DNA of 64,000 nucleotides from NCBI GenBank assembly GCA_002224055.1, contig AZLU01000048.1, positions 117,757-181,756 of the forward strand, given 5' to 3'. The translations under genes and the position numbers were made by a program. Under the pieces are notes generated by a model that made no database searches, was not told the origin of the DNA, and saw only the letters and a list, made by a program, of their open reading frames with translations. The stretch is from Pezizomycotina sp. ARF18. Its lineage: Eukaryota; Ascomycota. Shown in pieces: positions 20,152-48,416 of this stretch. Numbering within the stretch: position 1 is the stretch's first letter; every line of letters starts with the position of its first letter.

Positions 20152-21254
20152 GATGATGGCTTGTTTGTAAGACGATTTTGGAAAGATGTGAAGCTACGTT
20201 GGTTTGCAATTGATCTGTTGGATGTCAGTAAACGGGATTTTGCAAGAGCAGTAGCGTATCTAGTAAGTATTTATACAGTATCCCTCCCACCGGAATCCAA
20301 TGCATGCTATACCAGCAATATTCGATTCGCAATTTAGCGGCATCCAACCCCTCAATCCACGCCAAAAAGAAAAATAGTATGCGAGATTAACTGGCTTCCC
20401 AGAGATCCAACAGCAACACATTCGATAGCTTCATTTTAGCTCAGTTGAAACCCCTCTCTTGGCAAAACGATTCAGATGCGGGGTATGCTTTTGCACAGCC
20501 CTCCTTGGTGTCATGGTTTTTCGTCATTGAAATTCACGGAATGCACCCTGTGCCGACGTCGAGCCCAGGGTTCATCCAGGTTCGTCTACCGGAAACGTAT
20601 CCTATTAGCCTAAAGAAGCCATAAAATATTAAACCCTCTTCGCTTTGTCTCGGGTTTTTTTGGTATCGTAACTCTTAAGAACAGGTTGCAATGTTTTTGT
20701 TTTGGCACGCAAGCTGCTTGAACTGGCTATCGCGAACCGAGTTCTCGCCTGACTATCGGTCGCGTTTTCAATCAGACGGATTGTCGATGTGCCAAGCACA
20801 CCGGGGTGTTTCTAGTTTGAGGGATGATTGAGGATTGCGAGCCAGGATGCAGCAAAGTTGGGCTGGGAGTCAAAAGAGTGAAATTTTCAGGAGAACAGCG
20901 TCTAAGAAATATAAGCTGATACTTCTGCAAAAGGTGGAAAATCGCAGCTTCTCTACTGAAGTATATATCGTTCACTATCAACATCGATCAAAGCTCGATT
21001 TGACTGTACATGGCTTTTGGGTAACTGCGAGAGGCGTCTCACCGAAGAGCTTGCAAACACTATATATTTCTGTATAAATAGATGCAATTTCTAGCACGAG
21101 TATAGTCCGATGATCGCAACGATATAGTAGTCCAAACTCTGACGAGGTTTTGCTTCGGATATATAAATTATTATCTCGTTTTCTTTCTAGAAGTTATACA
21201 TAGTTTCCTAATGCGCTTAAATGTGCGAAGCACGTGCGGTGCCGGTGCCGCTCC
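20152..21254. other. Intergenic, no gene seen
   Basis: No supported coding frame. The short opposed frames at 20772-21077 overlap each other and show no domain. Confidence 0.4.
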
Positions 21255-21304
21255 GGATCGGATCGGATCGGGTCGGATCGGGTCGGGTCGGATCGGGTCG
21301 GGTC
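21255..21304. repeat. Pentamer minisatellite GGATC/GGGTC
   Basis: Ten head-to-tail 5-bp units, each either GGATC (A) or GGGTC (G), in the order A A A G A G G A G G. The GGGTC-type sequence resembles the GC-rich ends of the hAT-type element at 31.3-33.8 kb, but no terminal repeats flank it here. Confidence 0.85.
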
Positions 21305-23288: not shown

Positions 23289-24536
23289 TTAAGTCCTTTC
23301 CCAGAGGGCGATTGGCTTGAACTCCGCTAATGGTTTCATTCCAAAGAAATGACCAGCGCCTCCGCTGCTTCGCGCAATGGATGCTACAGCCCTCTGCCTC
23401 ATCAAGTATTCGTAACCCATGATTTCCTCCGCTTTGCTAGCTTTGTTATTATAAATCTGAACCAGAGCATCGCATAAGTCCGCTGCTTCTTCAAAGGCAG
23501 CGTTGGCACCGACACCTCCAACTGGCGGCATCGGATGCGCTGCATCTTCTAGCATAGTCACAGAACACGGGTCTGGTCTCTGAGGCTTCCTAATACCTTC
23601 CCATTTCGCCGTGAAGTCATCTGTGTCGCAGGTGAAGAAAGCAAGCGTCGAAGCCGACGGAACCTGTTGGTTATCCATAATGAGTCGGAGCCTCTCATGC
23701 CAATTCTCGTAAGCTCAATGGAACTCTATACCGATTCCTCATTCGTCTTGGAAAGCAGCGACTGCATCGTCTCCTCGGGCTTGACGTCGCTGCGAAAGAC
23801 CAAAACCCAGTAGATGTAATCGTGCGGAAGCTCGAATCCGGTTTTTGCAGCGGCGTCGCGGTTGAATTGCATGATATCCGTGAAGAGCTTTACGTTACTT
23901 TGGCTCTCTTCGCCGATTAAGGTATTTCGCTTTCGAAGCGGAGTACGTTCTAGGAATTCGGATGCTGTGATGCACGTCTTACCGAAAACGGCGCGGCCTT
24001 CCATATCTAAAATGATAAGCCCAGGTAGGAGTTTCCGTCAAACAGCTGAGCGTGTTCCGTCGGCGTTGATAAGCATGCTGCCTTGTGCTGTCGTCCCGTC
24101 CGAAAAGTGCGCTTCGACGGTGCCGTCAGGGGCGACCGAGTAGCTTTCAAATCTCTTACCAAACAAGATGTGTTCTTCGAGATCCTTGAGCAAAATACTG
24201 CGTAATACCGCTCAGTCCCCGTTATATGCTCGCGCTCCCGGTGTTGAATTACGGGCGCCGGGAGGAGGACCTGCGGCCCATTCGGTGGCTTCAGCTGTAA
24301 GTGCATTCATGTGCTGGCCGCCGTGGATTAGGTTACCGCAAGTATCTTCAAACGCCTTGAAGAGCTCATCCGTCAGGACTCGCTTGGGTGAGATTCGAAG
24401 GCGGTAGCCCTGCGCTCGTATGATGCCTGGGTGTCACGTTCGAAGATGTGGAATATAATTGGAGGGTCGGCTTTTTTGAGACCTTGGGCAAAGAATAAAC
24501 CCCAGGCCGGCACCGATGATGATAAATTTGGGACAT
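23289..24536 (-). pseudogene. FAD-dependent monooxygenase (PHBH fold), broken
   Basis: The N-terminal FAD motif reads PKFIIIGAGLG, then LFFAQGLKKADPPIIFHIFE. Next come AQGYRLRISPKRVLTDELFK, the AVLRSILLKDLEEHILFG stretch and the DG motif ADGTRSAV. The C-terminal GD motif is LEDAAHPMPPVGGVGANAAF followed by EEAADLCDALVQ. This order defines aromatic-ring or polyketide hydroxylases of the PHBH type, which use FAD and NAD(P)H. The codon after TRSAV is TGA where the family usually has Arg (CGA to TGA), and the frame changes several times, including inside the N-terminal FAD motif. The likely original start is the ATG at 24536. It probably formed a metabolic pair with the neighbouring NmrA-like gene. 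Confidence 0.75.
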
Positions 24537-26874: not shown

Positions 26875-27360
26875 AGTAAAATTTTTATAAAATTTTACTT
26901 AAGTATGTATATTAACGATTCTTAAATTATAAATAACTTAACAAGTTTTAATATTATAAACTTAATTTATATACGAGCGTGTTCGGCTTGTTATTTTAAA
27001 TAACCTTTATATATAAATTATTTTCATAACTCAGGCTTTAAAACTGTTAAATTATTTACATCTAAAATTATTATTTATTAATTATAAAGTAAAAATTCCG
27101 GTTTATAATCTATTATAAATAAGAATTTTTATCTTATAATTATTCAGTTTTAGTATATATAAATTGATTTAATCTTAAATATTTTAGCAACGGGGAGTTT
27201 TAAAGTTATAAAATAATTTGAATACAAAAGTTGTTATTTAAAATAATAAGCTCAACACGCTTGCTTATAAATTAAGTTTATAGCACTAAAACTCGTTAAG
27301 TTATTTATAATTTAAGAATCGCCGATATATATATTTAAGTAATATTTTATAAAATTTACT
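26875..27360. mobile_element. Palindromic AT-rich MITE-like element
   Basis: Imperfect palindrome of 486 bp. The outer arms (about 130 bp each) match closely: AGTAAAATTTTTATAAAA on the left pairs with the end TTATAAAATTTACT on the right, and CGATTCTTAAATTATAAATA pairs with its reverse complement near 27300. The match continues, more weakly, to a centre near 27,115. A further partial copy of the arm motif lies at about 27,376-27,406. There is no coding capacity. The superfamily is undetermined. Confidence 0.7.
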
Positions 27361-31298: not shown

Positions 31299-31306
31299 AT
31301 TTAATG
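31299..31306. repeat. Target-site duplication, left
   Basis: ATTTAATG, identical to 33757-33764. Eight bases is the target duplication length of hAT transposons. Confidence 0.85.
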
Positions 31307-31548
31307 TAGCGTTCTAGGTCGAACCGGGTTCAAGTGCTCGACCCGGTCGGGTCAAGGCGCCGGGCCGGGTACCCGGCCCCGCCCGGTGCGGGTCGGGTTA
31401 ACCCGCCAAGACATTTTTATATATAAAAATAATTCTATTTCTAGATATTTTTATATAATTTTATATTTTATTTTGCATTTTTACATCAATTTGGGAATTA
31501 TTTTATATATATTTATTTATTATTTATATATATCTGCTAGCTAACAAC

Positions 31549-32210
31549 TCCCCATGCCATGGCTCAACATCTCCATGTCCGTCACCAACATCCCCATCCA
31601 TGGCTTAACATCTCCATGTCTGTCCACCAACATCTCCACGGCAGAGCACCGGTATCCCCATGCCATGGGGCAACATCTCTATGTCCATCCACCAACATCC
31701 CCATCCCATGGCTTAACATCTCCATGTCCGTCCACCAACATCTCCACGGCAGAGCACCGGTATCCCCATGCCATGGGGCAACATCTCTATGTCCATCCAC
31801 CAACATCCCCATCCATGGCTTAACATCTCATGTCCGTCCACCAACATCTCCATGGCAGTGCACCGGTATCTCCATGCCATGGGGCAACATCGCCATGTCC
31901 ATCCACCAACATCCCCATACCATGGCTCAACATCTCCATGTCCATCCACCAACATCTCCATGTCTATCCACCAACATCCCCATGGCATGGTTCAACATCT
32001 CCATGTCCATCTATCAACATCTCTATGGCATGGCTCAACATCTCTATGGCAGAGCACCGGTATCCCCATGGCATAGGGCAACATCTCCATGTCCGTTCAC
32101 CAACATCCCCATGCTATGGCTCAACATCTCCATGGCAGAACACCGGTATCCCATGCCATGGCTCAACACCATGGGTGTCCTCCCACCAACATCACCATGT
32201 CATGTCCCTG
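31549..32210. repeat. Minisatellite in left arm of the palindrome
   Basis: Tandem composite units built from CCATGGCTCAACATCTCCAT, CATGTCCGTCCACCAACATC and GGCAGAGCACCGGTATCCCC. CCATGG recurs throughout. The array is longer (about 660 bp) than its mirror in the right arm. It has few stop codons in any frame, which creates long but meaningless open frames on both strands. Confidence 0.85.
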
Positions 32211-33104
32211 CATCAAACCAACATATTAGCAAAACCTTTAAAACCAGAGAGATAAAACCAGAGAGATCCACTTACCAATACCAAACCACCGCCGCATCCC
32301 AAGTTGTAGAGGCATACACACGGGAGAATAGCCAGGATCCTATAATATACGGCGATTAGCTGTAAAGTACTCCGGACAACTTAGAGAATTAAAGTCAGAA
32401 CTACAGAAGAGTCTAAGTTCTACGAACTCGAAGGGAAGGGTTCTTTTTAATACCTTAAGCAGACCACTATTGAGATCTAATACTTCTTCGGCATTAAAGA
32501 ACGGCTAGTAGAGGTGAAAAACATCTCTTGCGAACGACTTAAAGCTATTAGAACCCCTTTTCTACTCGACCTCTTCCTCGTCTCAAATTATTAAATTTTC
32601 GAGGATCTACAGTAGTGATTTACAGAAAACTTATTTTATTTAAGCGCTACATGACTCGTGTTAAGATTTAGATAAAAAGAGGTTCTCATAGCTTTGGGCC
32701 GTTCGCAAGAATGTTTTTCACCTCTACTAGCCGTTTCTTAATGCCGAAATTACATAGTGTTTGATCGACAGAATTAGTGGTTTTCAGACCGAAAATCCTA
32801 ATTTTTCTAAAGGACAATCCTTCGAGTTCAAAAAAATAAGACTCCTCTGTAGTTTTTACTTTGAATCTCTAAGTTGTCTGTATTACAATACAGGAATCTG
32901 CGAAGTAAGCCGGGATTCCGGAGTCCGGCACAGGGGGCAGCGGTATCACCTTATAATAAATACTGCCTTCCCCCCCCAGTTTTCAATGAAAACGACCTAA
33001 TCCTCTATTATTTGGTATTAGGATACGGCGGTGGTTTGGTGTTGGTAAGTGGGATCTCTCTGGTTTTATCTCTCTGGTTTTAAAGGTTTGCTAATATGTT
33101 GGTT

Positions 33105-33541
33105 TGATGCAGGGACATGACATGGTGATGTTGGTGGGAGGACACCCATGGTGTTGAGCCATGGCATGGGGATACCGGTGTTCTGCCATGGAGATGTTGA
33201 GCCATAGCATGGGGATGTTGGTGGACGGACATGGAGATGTTGCCCTATGCCATGGGGATACCGGTGCTCTGCCATGGAGATGTTGAGCCATGCCATGGAG
33301 ATGTTGATAGATGGACATGGAGATGTTGAACCATGCCATGGGGATGTTGGTGGATAGACATGGAGATGTTGAGCCATGGTATGGGGATGTGGTGGATGGA
33401 CATGGCGATGTTGCCCATGGCATGGAGATACCGGTGCACTGCCATGGAGATGTTGGTGGACGGACATGGAGATGTTAGCCATGGGATGGGGATGTTGGTG
33501 GACGGACATGGAGATGTTGAGCCATGGCATGGGGATGTTGT
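33105..33541. repeat. Minisatellite in right arm of the palindrome
   Basis: Inverted counterpart of the array at 31549-32210, about 440 bp, with the same units read as GATGTTGGTGGACGGACATG and similar. It has lost units, or the left arm has gained them. Confidence 0.85.
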
Positions 33542-33756
33542 TAGCTAGCAGATATATATAAATAATATAATAAATTATATATAAATAATTCCCAAATTGA
33601 TGTAAAATGCAAAATAAAATATAAAATTATATAAAAATATCTACAATAGAATTATTTTTTATATATAAAATGTCTTGGCGGGTTGAAGATGCGCCGGTAC
33701 CCGCCGGGCGGGTCAGAGGGCCCAAACCCGGCCCGGCCCGCCGGCCTCAAACGCTA

Positions 33757-33764
33757 ATTTAATG
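33757..33764. repeat. Target-site duplication, right
   Basis: ATTTAATG, exact copy of 31299-31306. Confidence 0.85.
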
Positions 33765-39228: not shown

Positions 39229-40145
39229 GACCTAATATAGGCGTTCTTACTCCCACGAAGACTCGCTATGACTGCAGGTCCTGCGAAGAAGACAACCACT
39301 GCAGAGAGACTCCAGAGGACCGCGGGAGACGATCATCCAGGCAATTCAACAGGTTCTTTAGAGCCCCAAGGACCTACAACGGAACTCTTGCCCACTCCCC
39401 ACGTGCGGCAGGATCAGGACCAAGTTTCCGTCGGGGGGACCTCAATTGGGAATACCTTAATCAAGAAGACCTCCTCTGTAACCTGCCTCGAACGGTTCCC
39501 CTTAGAGCTCTGCTCGAGGTGTTTACCCACCTTGACTACGACGACTTGAAGTATCACGTTCTCAGAACCTGCAAGATGTTCAAAGACGTTCTGGAAAGGC
39601 CCACTATCAAAGGAGCTCTTGCTAGAGCATTGTTTCGCGACGAGCCGGACCGTTATTTAAAGTCTTCCGGAGAAATCATGTGAACCCTTCCCTTCAGAGG
39701 TCTCCTCTCTGCCCAGTCGAGAGCGCACTTATGTTACTCGTACTCCATCAGGGCAAACGCCTCACGAGGTTACCGGCAATGGCTTCTCGCCTAGAGAATG
39801 CCGTATCCCCGGCCGTCACCTATCTGGAGGTCAGGGTTCAAGGACTGAGGATGGTCAAGCTCATCAACGGAGCGGGAGGCACGGGGCGGTAACGGTCGGT
39901 GACGTCGTCAAGGCTATTGGGATTATAATTTCCCACCATGTTATGGTAGTTAGTCGGCAGCTTCAAGCCGTCGGCCGCATTACAACCAGCCGCATGTTCA
40001 GTCACGAGATCTTATCGCTTTAGACCCGATGCAGATATTGATATCTTACTCTAGGGGCCTCAAGATCTCGATCTCAATAAAGAAGGCGGAAGGAGATGGC
40101 GGAGGCACGGTTCAACTTGAAGCAGGCCTCTTCATATTTCATTAA
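39229..40145 (+). pseudogene. F-box protein, array copy A
   Basis: The frame open from 39229 has no ATG near its start. It carries an Arg-rich leader, then the F-box NLPRTVPLRALLEVFTHLDY, DDLKYHVLRTCKMFKDVL, then ALARALFRDEPDRYLKS, stopping at 39681. Downstream frames give LENAVSPAVTYLEVRVQ, AVTVGDVVKAIGIIISHHV and SYSRGLKISISIKKAEG, ending near 40145. F-box proteins link substrates to SCF ubiquitin ligases through Skp1. An upstream exon could supply the start, since a TATA element lies at 38915. The overlapping ATG frame at 39268 reaches the F-box out of frame. It is the closest relative of copy B. Confidence 0.65.
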
Positions 40146-41513: not shown

Positions 41514-42265
41514 ATGACGAGGATTTACCTGGAAGCCCTAAGCAAGCGGAGCATCCGAAGTCAGTTGCAGCAAACCTTTCGACTCACGTCAAGGATCTCT
41601 TTCAGAAGTCTAAACCTAGAAGGGAGCTCTAGGTCCACCCGTGGATGCAGAAACCAACCACCCTATCCAACTTGTTCATTCCCCAGTAAGTCTCAGGACC
41701 TCAAAGATCGAAGAGGTTTTAGAACGCAGCTAACAGCTAATAGATTATTGGCACAACGGAAAAAAGCAACCTCTATTAAATCACGATATGCCCGCCTTCA
41801 CCATTTGGCATTGCTCATTCAAACACTCCAACAAGGCAACATCGGTACACAGCTTCCGTCAAAAAGTCTCAATCGTGAAGACCTCGCCTGAACTTGAAAC
41901 CTGCTCGAACGGTTGCCCTTAGAGCTCTGCCCCGGGGGGTTCACCTACCTGGCTACGACGACTTGAAGTATCGCGTTCCGTGAACCTGAAAGATGCTAAA
42001 GGGCTTCTGGAAAAGCCTTAAGGGTGCCCTTGCCACAGCACTGTTCTGCGATGAGCCAAAAAATCTATGTCAACCGTTCCCTCCAGAGGTCTCGCCTTTG
42101 CCCATCTGGCAGCTTCAAATGACACACCACTCTGCAACCAGCAGAATCCTCACTCGCGAGATCTTATCGCTTTAGACCCGATACAGATATTGATATCTTA
42201 CACTAGGGGCCTCGAGATCGCGGTCTCGATAAACAAGCGGAACAAGATGATGGAGCACGGTTGAG
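41514..42265 (+). pseudogene. F-box protein, array copy B (degenerate)
   Basis: An Arg/Ser-rich leader begins at ATG 41514. The F-box remnant (about 41,905-42,050) is recognisable by its DNA match to copy A: CTCGAACGGTTGCCCTTAGA, then ACTACGACGACTTGAAGTAT in slightly changed form, and CTGTTCTGCGATGAGCC for the LFRDEP stretch. Compared with A, the middle containing the ENAVSPAV segment is missing. The end matches again from GAGATCTTATCGCTTTAGAC to about 42,265. So B is a shorter, more decayed duplicate of A about 2.3 kb away. Confidence 0.6.
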
Positions 42266-43430
42266 CTTGAGGAAGGCTTCCTCATTAAAGCTCTATGCAG
42301 TAACCAATATCTCGATTATCGATATATCTAATAATCCCACAACAGCAAGAAGACGAAGAAGCCTCAAAAATAATAATGTATATAATATATGTTCACAAGA
42401 GCTCCCTCTCCTTCCTCCTTCTGCCGCGTTGTGGAACCCCGGAATTTTCAAGGTCTCTCTTCCCTGGCTGCACCCAGAACACTCTACGACACTATGGATC
42501 GGCGGGCGCCAAATTTTACTAGCACCAAGGTCGGAAGCGGACAGCACATTGTCCAACATGTTTATCCACCGGCCTGGAACTATCGACTTGTGACTTGCCA
42601 ACTATCCTGTACATTACCCATTATTAAGACTTTGGCTTAGAAGTACGCTAGCTAGCTATTCCTATTGCTCCCATCGGAAGGTAATTCATTCTAGAAAAAT
42701 TACATTTCCTGCAAGCTACTAAGCATCTCCAGTATCCTCGTAGGTCGTACGCGAGGGCGGAAAGAAAAAAAAAAGAAAAAGGAAAATTGAAAAAGGAAAC
42801 GAGCTTTGCCCTACTAGTAGGTTGCGCAAGTCTGAAAGAAAAATTGATTAACAGCTCCTTCAATCTAAATGAGAAAGTTGAGGTAAAGGGCCCCGTAGAT
42901 TTCCAATAAAATTCATGCTCCATCATATCACATAAAATTCCACTACAATGAATACCAATAGCAAATCATGCGAGTGTTGTAGAGTCGAGATTCATCATCG
43001 GGAGACCATTTACTACGGACTTTTATGCATTAGCATTGGACGCTGAAGTCAGAACACACGTTCAAGTTGACCACTGAATATCTTTAGTTGGAAAAGGAGA
43101 GATATATTGTAAGTGAACACTATACCTTATGTTATAATGGAACAGACAGGCCCCTTTCTAAGCCACCTTTTACCCTTTATAAAGCAGCTTATGTTGTATC
43201 CTGAGGCCGATATGATTATTGCACCGCGTTGAGGGGGAATATTTATAAAGTAGAGAATCGGTGTAAATATTACCCCAGTTGAGAATTAATTTTTCCTCGT
43301 ATTAATAATAATAATAATAAATCAATTCTTTTGAGCCGACGAAATTGTGCCTATTACTACGAAGTCACCTCAACGTTGGTTCTCACAAACAACGAAGCTC
43401 CTCAAACGCCAAATATCAAACATCGGCGAC
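42266..43430. other. Intergenic with a short trinucleotide run
   Basis: No gene. A short AAT trinucleotide run lies near 43,304-43,320. Confidence 0.4.
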
Positions 43431-47213: not shown

Positions 47214-48416
47214 ATGATTGAAGTGCCGGGATATCAGGTTATGGTAAGCTTCCTGAAACTAAACACCCTCTATTATACGCTATATTCCGGGACTGATATT
47301 TACACAAAACGTCTACCAGTTCGTAGAATGGACGCTTGTCATCTGCACCCTTATCCTCCTTTGTCTCCGGATATACGCCCGCCTCAACCTAAAATCCACA
47401 ATAGTTACATTTAACGACTTCTTCGCCATCCTCTCCTGGTTGTCCTTTCTCACCGCTGCGTCCATCGATACTGCCCTCTACCGCTCCGGCTACTTCGAAG
47501 ACGCACCCGCGACAGTCTACTCTTTAAGACTACATACTTCGATGGAGGAGAATACTTCTGGTGTCCGTACGCCGCGAAAGCATCCATGCTTTGCTTCTAC
47601 ACCGACCTCGTGCCGCGTACAATGAAGAAAACGAGGATGTTAATGTGGTGTACGGCAATATTTACCGTCGTGGGGTTCATCGCGACGGAGGGAATATTGT
47701 TCTTCAGTTGTATTCCGATAAGCAGTAATTGGAGCCTTGACGAGAAGACGCAGTGCAGTCCGTCGTGGAGTGTGCCGGGATACGTCGTCCCCTACGTTTT
47801 CCATTTACTCACGGATGTGTTGATTTATACTATACTATTCTCGTCGTGCGGGCGGTAAGATTACCGTCTAATCAGAAGATCGCGGTTGGTTTGACGTTTG
47901 CTTTGGGATTCCTGTGTGTCGCTTTCGGGGTCGCTGTTATTGCTGCGAGTTGGAGCGTTCATAATCTTGGTTTTGGGTGGATATGGGGATGCTTAGAGCA
48001 GTCTTGGCTGTGGTATTATATGCGCTCCGTCGTTCAAGTACTTTATTTCTAAATGGGATTCGTCGGTTCGTGGAACGGTCATTAGGAAAGGTCGGTACGA
48101 GTTGGGTTGTTAGTAAGAACGGTGGGAGTGGGGAAGGTAGTGAAGGTACGAGGAGTAAATTGGTTTGGGCGGTGGCGGAATGTTTAAGACGAATATTTCT
48201 ACTAGTGAGAGCAGTCGAGCTGTTTTCATGCAGGAAGGGGAAAGCGAGGAGGAGATTACAGCCAGTGGGAATAAGGGACATCACGGTAGCGGTGGTATTG
48301 TTGTCAACAGGACGGTGGAAATCGAGTTGGAAGATAGGCGCGATATTAATGCAGGTAATAGGGAGAAAGATCTGGAGGGCGGATCATCCTTAAGCTCCGT
48401 TCCGTCGAGATCTTGA
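47214..48416 (+). pseudogene. Rhodopsin-domain (Pth11/SAT4-like) membrane protein, frame-shifted
   Basis: ATG at 47214 opens MIEVPGYQVM, then a 76-bp intron (47244-47319, donor GTAAGC, acceptor CCAG). Exon 2 gives FVEWTLVICTLILLCLRIYA, then the NDFFAILSWLSFLTAASIDT helix, KTTYFDGGEYFWCPYAAKAS, MLMWCTAIFTVVGFIATEGI, VVPYVFHLLTDVLIYTI, AVRLPSNQKIAVGLTFALGF and VAVIAASWSVHNLG. This is the order of the fungal rhodopsin-domain family: about seven helices and the Asp before the third. A charged cytoplasmic tail contains RTVEIELEDRRDINAGN and ends at 48416. Three or four one-base frame changes occur; no point stop is needed. It may be a receptor-like protein; the ligand is unknown. Confidence 0.75.

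Follow-up and report, generated by a model that had tools for sequence, protein, structure and literature searches.

Positions 31307-33756 of the 64,000-nucleotide stretch of DNA analysed here (the window) hold a 2,450-bp sequence that pairs with its own reverse complement. The question raised by the locus is what kind of element this is, and how its two arms came to be so alike. The element is very probably a foldback transposon, having long inverted arms with internal tandem repeats that are unequal in number between the arms, and judged from its duplication length and terminal bases it probably belongs to the hAT superfamily. On balance we slightly favor the complete reading, in which a non-autonomous foldback element of hAT type carries an old palindrome, had its arms homogenised later, and was moved in trans.

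Boundaries, tips and superfamily

The element is bounded by two direct copies of ATTTAATG, located at 31299-31306 and 33757-33764 (both + strand) and matching perfectly over 8 bp, as the first-pass annotation had reported. It starts with TAGCGTT and finishes with AACGCTA; the TAGCG...CGCTA ends given in that annotation are thus present as 7-bp inverted tips. In the 300-bp stretches lying outward of the two arms, only the pair 31307/33756 combines a 7-bp inverted tip with an 8-bp duplication, and at least one such pair arises beside the arms in 13 of 2000 dinucleotide shuffles. The whole window contains 10 such pairs at spacings of 80-10,000 bp. These comprise the element's own pair, five inside the element, which we ascribe to the near-identical arms and to self-complementary words, and four elsewhere. 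The signature is therefore not rare by itself, and it is its position that counts. Both boundaries coincide with large changes in GC content, which rises from 20.0% to 71.3% on entering the element at the left and falls from 74.0% to 22.0% on leaving it at the right.

The left GC-rich end (31307-31400, + strand) contains seven CGGGT/ACCCG words, and the right GC-rich end (33684-33756, - strand) contains three. hAT elements have repeated short transposase-binding motifs near their ends, and these words are candidates for such sites. Aligned in inverted orientation the two ends are identical at 54 of 65 positions with nine gaps, the first seven bases being perfect. Of 500 shuffles, 4 equal or exceed the local score of 26 (shuffle mean 16, maximum 28) and 1 does so for the global score. 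A control alignment in direct orientation scores 25, so that a common origin of the tips is unproven. Past the first seven bases the tips appear to resemble each other mostly in composition. The matching 25-bp ends that had been proposed are absent, since beyond the seven perfect bases the remainder lies barely above the direct-orientation control. Folded as DNA, the left end is not unusual (z -1.37, with 20 of 200 shuffles equally stable).

The tips of hAT elements have the form C/T-A-G-N-G, and those found here are the variant with T. Together with the 8-bp direct duplication this points to hAT. The assignment uses the duplication length and the terminal bases, whereas the defining feature of hAT elements is a transposase, and the element is better labelled hAT-like than proven hAT. 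A duplication of 8 bp is usual for hAT elements, and in the accessible part of the same source Zisupton elements likewise generate 8-bp duplications (PMC12730594; this and all papers below are cited from partial text).

The same anatomy could also be that of a Mutator-type (MULE) foldback, mobilised by a MULE transposase. Most foldback elements are said to be Mutator elements (PMC4079207), and the authors of Tetris (PMC4079207) and of Tm1 (PMC3169594), which have tandem repeats in long arms and duplications of 8-10 bp, assign them to Mutator. The 8-bp duplication described here falls within the 8-10-bp range of Mutator/MULE elements, and one Verticillium MULE has a duplication of 8 bp (PMC3441728). 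In Tm1 the inverted repeats are bordered on the outside by short motifs that are unequal (PMC3169594), somewhat like the tips of the present element. However, the tips of fungal MULEs read GGNAA (PMC3441728), to which TAGCG does not conform, and we consider a MULE origin unlikely. Given the Zisupton duplications and the Mutator foldbacks, duplication length and five terminal bases are compatible with other superfamilies, with hAT the probable one.

Three layers of the palindrome

The first-pass annotation described the element as one giant palindrome and as a foldback-type hAT derivative. The arms do pair far beyond chance, and the arms, the minisatellites and the hAT-like ends all fit such a derivative. 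An even palindromic cover is not borne out, however; the pairing is not uniform, and is made up of three layers of differing identity.

Inside the tips are the arm middles, each comprising an AT spacer, a minisatellite and an inner flank. The left arm middle (31401-32299, 899 bp) was aligned with the reverse complement of the right (33018-33683, 666 bp), a check that had been suggested at the outset, and 651 of 657 aligned bases are identical (99.1%). The arms differ by six substitutions and 13 one-base indels, and at their inner edge by a further indel of 3 bases. Seven of the 13 one-base indels lie in homopolymers, and these indels may be assembly error at the level of single bases. The left AT-rich spacer (31401-31544, + strand) is part of the conserved arm, and the right AT-rich spacer lies at 33541-33683 (- strand). 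Between 31401-31541 and 33545-33683, 135 of 136 aligned bases are identical, with eight one-base gaps. At the other end of the arms, the left inner flank (32205-32299, + strand) forms the end of the near-identical sequence, and the right inner flank (33018-33115, - strand) is defined by alignment to the left arm; there are two mismatches among the 147 aligned bases of 32152-32299 and 33018-33168.

A minisatellite in each arm had been noted, and an array with a 43-bp period is found in both. The left array (31545-32204, + strand; Tandem Repeats Finder) has in addition a higher-order period of 108 bp, with 90% matches. The right array (33116-33540, - strand) is shorter, lacking 235 bp that are present on the left as four blocks of 106, 66, 41 and 22 bp. 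Two adjacent left units of 107-108 bp are identical at 106 of 107 positions, and the unit that follows matches them at 100/106 and 99/107. The near-identity of the adjacent units indicates either that the left array was expanded by recent tandem duplication or that the right array lost units. The 43-bp units within one array match at 70% (left) or 77% (right), in contrast to 99% across the arms, and so the arrays are older than the likeness between the arms. Open frames of 272 and 186 amino acids run across the minisatellites; they were not counted as genes, because the strand is poor in stops and a 43-bp unit is not divisible by three.

The center of the element is a more diverged palindrome (32300-33017), based upon two halves at 32326-32600 and 32625-32918 with unequal sequence toward the arms. 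The halves are identical at 213 of 261 positions (81.6%) with 24 gaps, and the palindrome scores 211, the highest of 200 shuffles being 69. BLAST recovers largely the same core palindrome, at 67% over 573 columns with gaps counted. The core is centered at about 32,613-32,622, in keeping with the center near 32,600 given originally. The differences between its halves are 18 transitions and 30 transversions, on the strength of which we reject repeat-induced point mutation (RIP) as the source of the divergence, even though the core is RIP-like in composition (TA/AT 1.34, substrate index 0.71). Pfam gave no family in the core at E values up to 1 (four pieces scanned, of 24 open frames).

Substitutions number 6/657 in the arms, 48/261 in the core and 11/65 in the tips, and by Fisher's test the share in the arms differs from that in the core (p ~1e-21) and from that in the tips (p ~1e-8). 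With five scoring schemes the identity ranges over 98.3-99.1% for the arms, 78.1-84.6% for the core and 82.1-86.4% for the tips, the tip alignment being reduced to 28 bases in one of the five.

These layers can be accommodated by the following sequence of events. An old inverted duplication, or the fusion of two half-elements that had already diverged, would have generated the palindrome, and the core, perhaps with the tips, would retain its age. The middle of one arm would later have been copied onto the other, by gene conversion or by fold-back-primed repair after a break, and the repeat arrays would afterwards have changed length independently. We propose that this copying left a near-identical stretch with more diverged sequence on either side of it, and on the alignments we consider arm-to-arm copying fairly probable as the means by which the arms were homogenised. 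High identity would be produced equally well if the arm middles had been duplicated once, and recently. The abrupt changes of identity within the element may be a record of copying from arm to arm.

Homogenisation might be dispensed with altogether if two half-elements or two diverged copies lying head to head had been fused by a deletion, with no later copying; the arms would then derive from closely related copies and the core from other, older material. The core and tips are indeed similarly diverged, and the stretches that separate arm from core are unequal (32300-32325 at the left, 32919-33017 at the right), as such a fusion would allow. Yet the core halves form an inverted pair well above shuffles, so that the center is palindromic too, and a search of the core edges gave no 4-10-bp duplication accompanied by 8-12-bp inverted tips (with at most one mismatch). 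Fusion without subsequent copying is therefore improbable. The same search led us to reject a nested insertion as the source of the core. An artefact, in which a template-switched or adapter-less read was folded into the assembly, would suit arms that are 99% alike and differ mostly by one-base indels, and the flank-to-flank inverted similarity score of 34 is above the quantiles of simple shuffles. An artefact is nevertheless very hard to credit. Dinucleotide shuffles attain that flank score in 90 of 300 cases, the mirror symmetry ends before the element does, the two 8-bp copies are in direct and not inverted orientation, the right array lacks its four blocks and the core halves differ by 18%. 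In particular, a palindrome that ends inside the element, with arrays of different length, makes a folded or chimeric read unlikely. Copying between the arms of an older palindrome is the reading that we retain.

RIP, coding capacity and the surrounding DNA

RIP operates in filamentous ascomycetes, and would be expected to attack duplicated sequence like the arms. The RIP substrate index is 0.40 in the left flank and 0.77 (weakly RIP-like) in the right flank, 0.36 in the left tip (from about 100 bases), and 2.11 and 2.26 in the two minisatellites. With a RIP signature in the DNA to the left and none in the minisatellites, either the arms escaped RIP or they were duplicated after it had stopped. 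The index is a weak measure of age here, because a CpA-rich repeat unit raises it on its own. By our reading four of the six substitutions between the arms are C/T differences at a C preceding A; as 132 of 300 cytosines in the left arm precede A, this is uninformative on RIP between the arms. The insertion at this site was probably later than the RIP of the DNA to its left. The first 2000 positions of the window are extreme RIP-like DNA, with 23% GC and with CpA and TpG at 0.3 and 0.0% of dinucleotides.

A broader and more speculative possibility, which we think doubtful, is that a fungal family of hAT foldback elements maintains the likeness of its arms by copying one onto the other within a RIP-eroded genome, perhaps through hairpin or break-repair intermediates of hAT transposition. 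If this were so, an inverted pair that is 99% identical over ~650 bp with its CpA and TpG kept would mean that copying is faster than RIP, or that folding protects the arms from it. The presence of intact arms near RIP-eroded DNA raises the question of whether RIP is still active in this fungus, or leaves inverted pairs alone.

The element would be non-autonomous, carried to this site by a transposase that is encoded elsewhere in the genome and acted on its GC-rich ends. Pfam found no hAT transposase in the four core pieces or in 26 other pieces of the window (the window has 37 stop-to-stop frames with at least 130 amino acids, and the pieces take in 24 of these and two shorter ones). Neither Rfam at the gathering threshold nor a scan for tRNAs gave a match in the window. 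Self-comparison of the window revealed no second copy of the element, the matches outside it being short (26-34 bp) and AT-rich, and so lends no support to the new family suggested in the first-pass annotation. Exact patterns of the element had no matches in prokaryote genome contigs and plasmids, collections that are not fungal and carry little weight. In viral contigs, again not a fungal collection, most searches gave no matches and one gave two; the 301 bases around each of these contain no element-like sequence, and we regard them as chance matches.

The window has several further features. A second imperfect palindrome lies at 26875-27360; it is AT-rich, with an inverted self-match of 74% over 520 columns and a substrate index of 0.49, and does not match the element. 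At 21254-21304 there are 3.4 tandem copies of CGGGTCGGATCGGGT with a 15-bp period, in the word style of the GC-rich ends of the element; a second element, now decayed, may have left its tip here. Segments 39477-39646 and 39983-40135 are directly duplicated at 41895-42057 and 42135-42285, with 78% and 84% identity and in the same order. The piece 23292-23714 contains a short match (E 3.3e-07) to the FAD-binding domain PF01494, covering positions 291-329 of the 349 in the profile. A Fung_rhodopsin domain is encoded at 47415-47855, with an E value of 5.3e-12 and a score that passes the cut-off of the family; this domain and the RIP-like DNA give the window a fungal appearance. By eye the rhodopsin-domain gene (47263-48052) seems to be spread over three frames, and the neighboring frames have no match to that family. 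The apparent changes of frame may be introns, decay or assembly indels.

Comparison with known elements

The fungal hAT elements named in the accessible text of one study are Restless, Tfo1, Drifter and Crypt1 (PMC3441728). The tip motif given there is CAGNG, from which TAGCG differs solely at base 1, and the 8-bp duplication of VdHAT1 has a central TA, as does ATTTAATG (PMC3441728). The motif is not universal, since VdHAT3 starts with ATTTG (PMC3441728). Unlike the present element, VdHAT1 and VdHAT3 have inverted tips of 22 and 20 bp and encode a hAT domain, and the passages on them do not mention a long palindrome (PMC3441728). The plant hATpin elements, compared by title only, are MITE-like hAT elements with highly stable secondary structures. 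No foldback hAT, fungal or otherwise, is described among the matches listed in the accessible literature (titles and abstract openings, with few subscription papers).

The closest parallels in anatomy come from animals. Galileo of Drosophila has long inverted arms, some copies having tandem repeats, and as here the number of repeats differs between the arms of one copy (PMC3573991, PMC4168063). There are two-arm copies of Galileo without transposase, and in one copy the arms are 1,260 and 1,241 bp with 95.2% identity (PMC3573991, PMC4168063). Galileo differs from our element in belonging to the P superfamily, in its Drosophila host, in forming a multi-copy family and in having a known transposase. 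Tetris of Drosophila virilis has the same order of flanking, tandem-repeat, inner and middle domains, and like the element it has no apparent coding capacity and no known autonomous partner, with duplications of 8-10 bp (PMC4079207). It differs in its ~220-bp repeats, in arms of up to 1,735 bp, in having three structurally complete copies and in the suggestion by its authors that it is a Mutator element (PMC4079207). For the Tetris repeats gene conversion is given as one possible homogenising mechanism (PMC4079207). Tm1 of root-knot nematodes shares arm repeats of variable number, and unequal motifs beyond the inverted repeat; it differs in its mostly 9-bp duplications and its 13-15-bp units, and some of its copies encode a Mutator transposase of Phantom-like type (PMC3169594).

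With the arm repeats of Galileo, Tetris and Tm1 and with hATpin already described, the element is at most a variant on a known theme. The arms of Galileo are considered to grow by expansion of tandem repeats or by recruitment of internal sequence (PMC3573991), and a proposed benefit of long arms is that they contain multiple transposase sites (PMC3688188). The foldback elements compared are, in the accessible passages, of Mutator or P type and from animals; a hAT-like one in a fungus would strengthen the case that this shape evolves repeatedly by the growth of arms.
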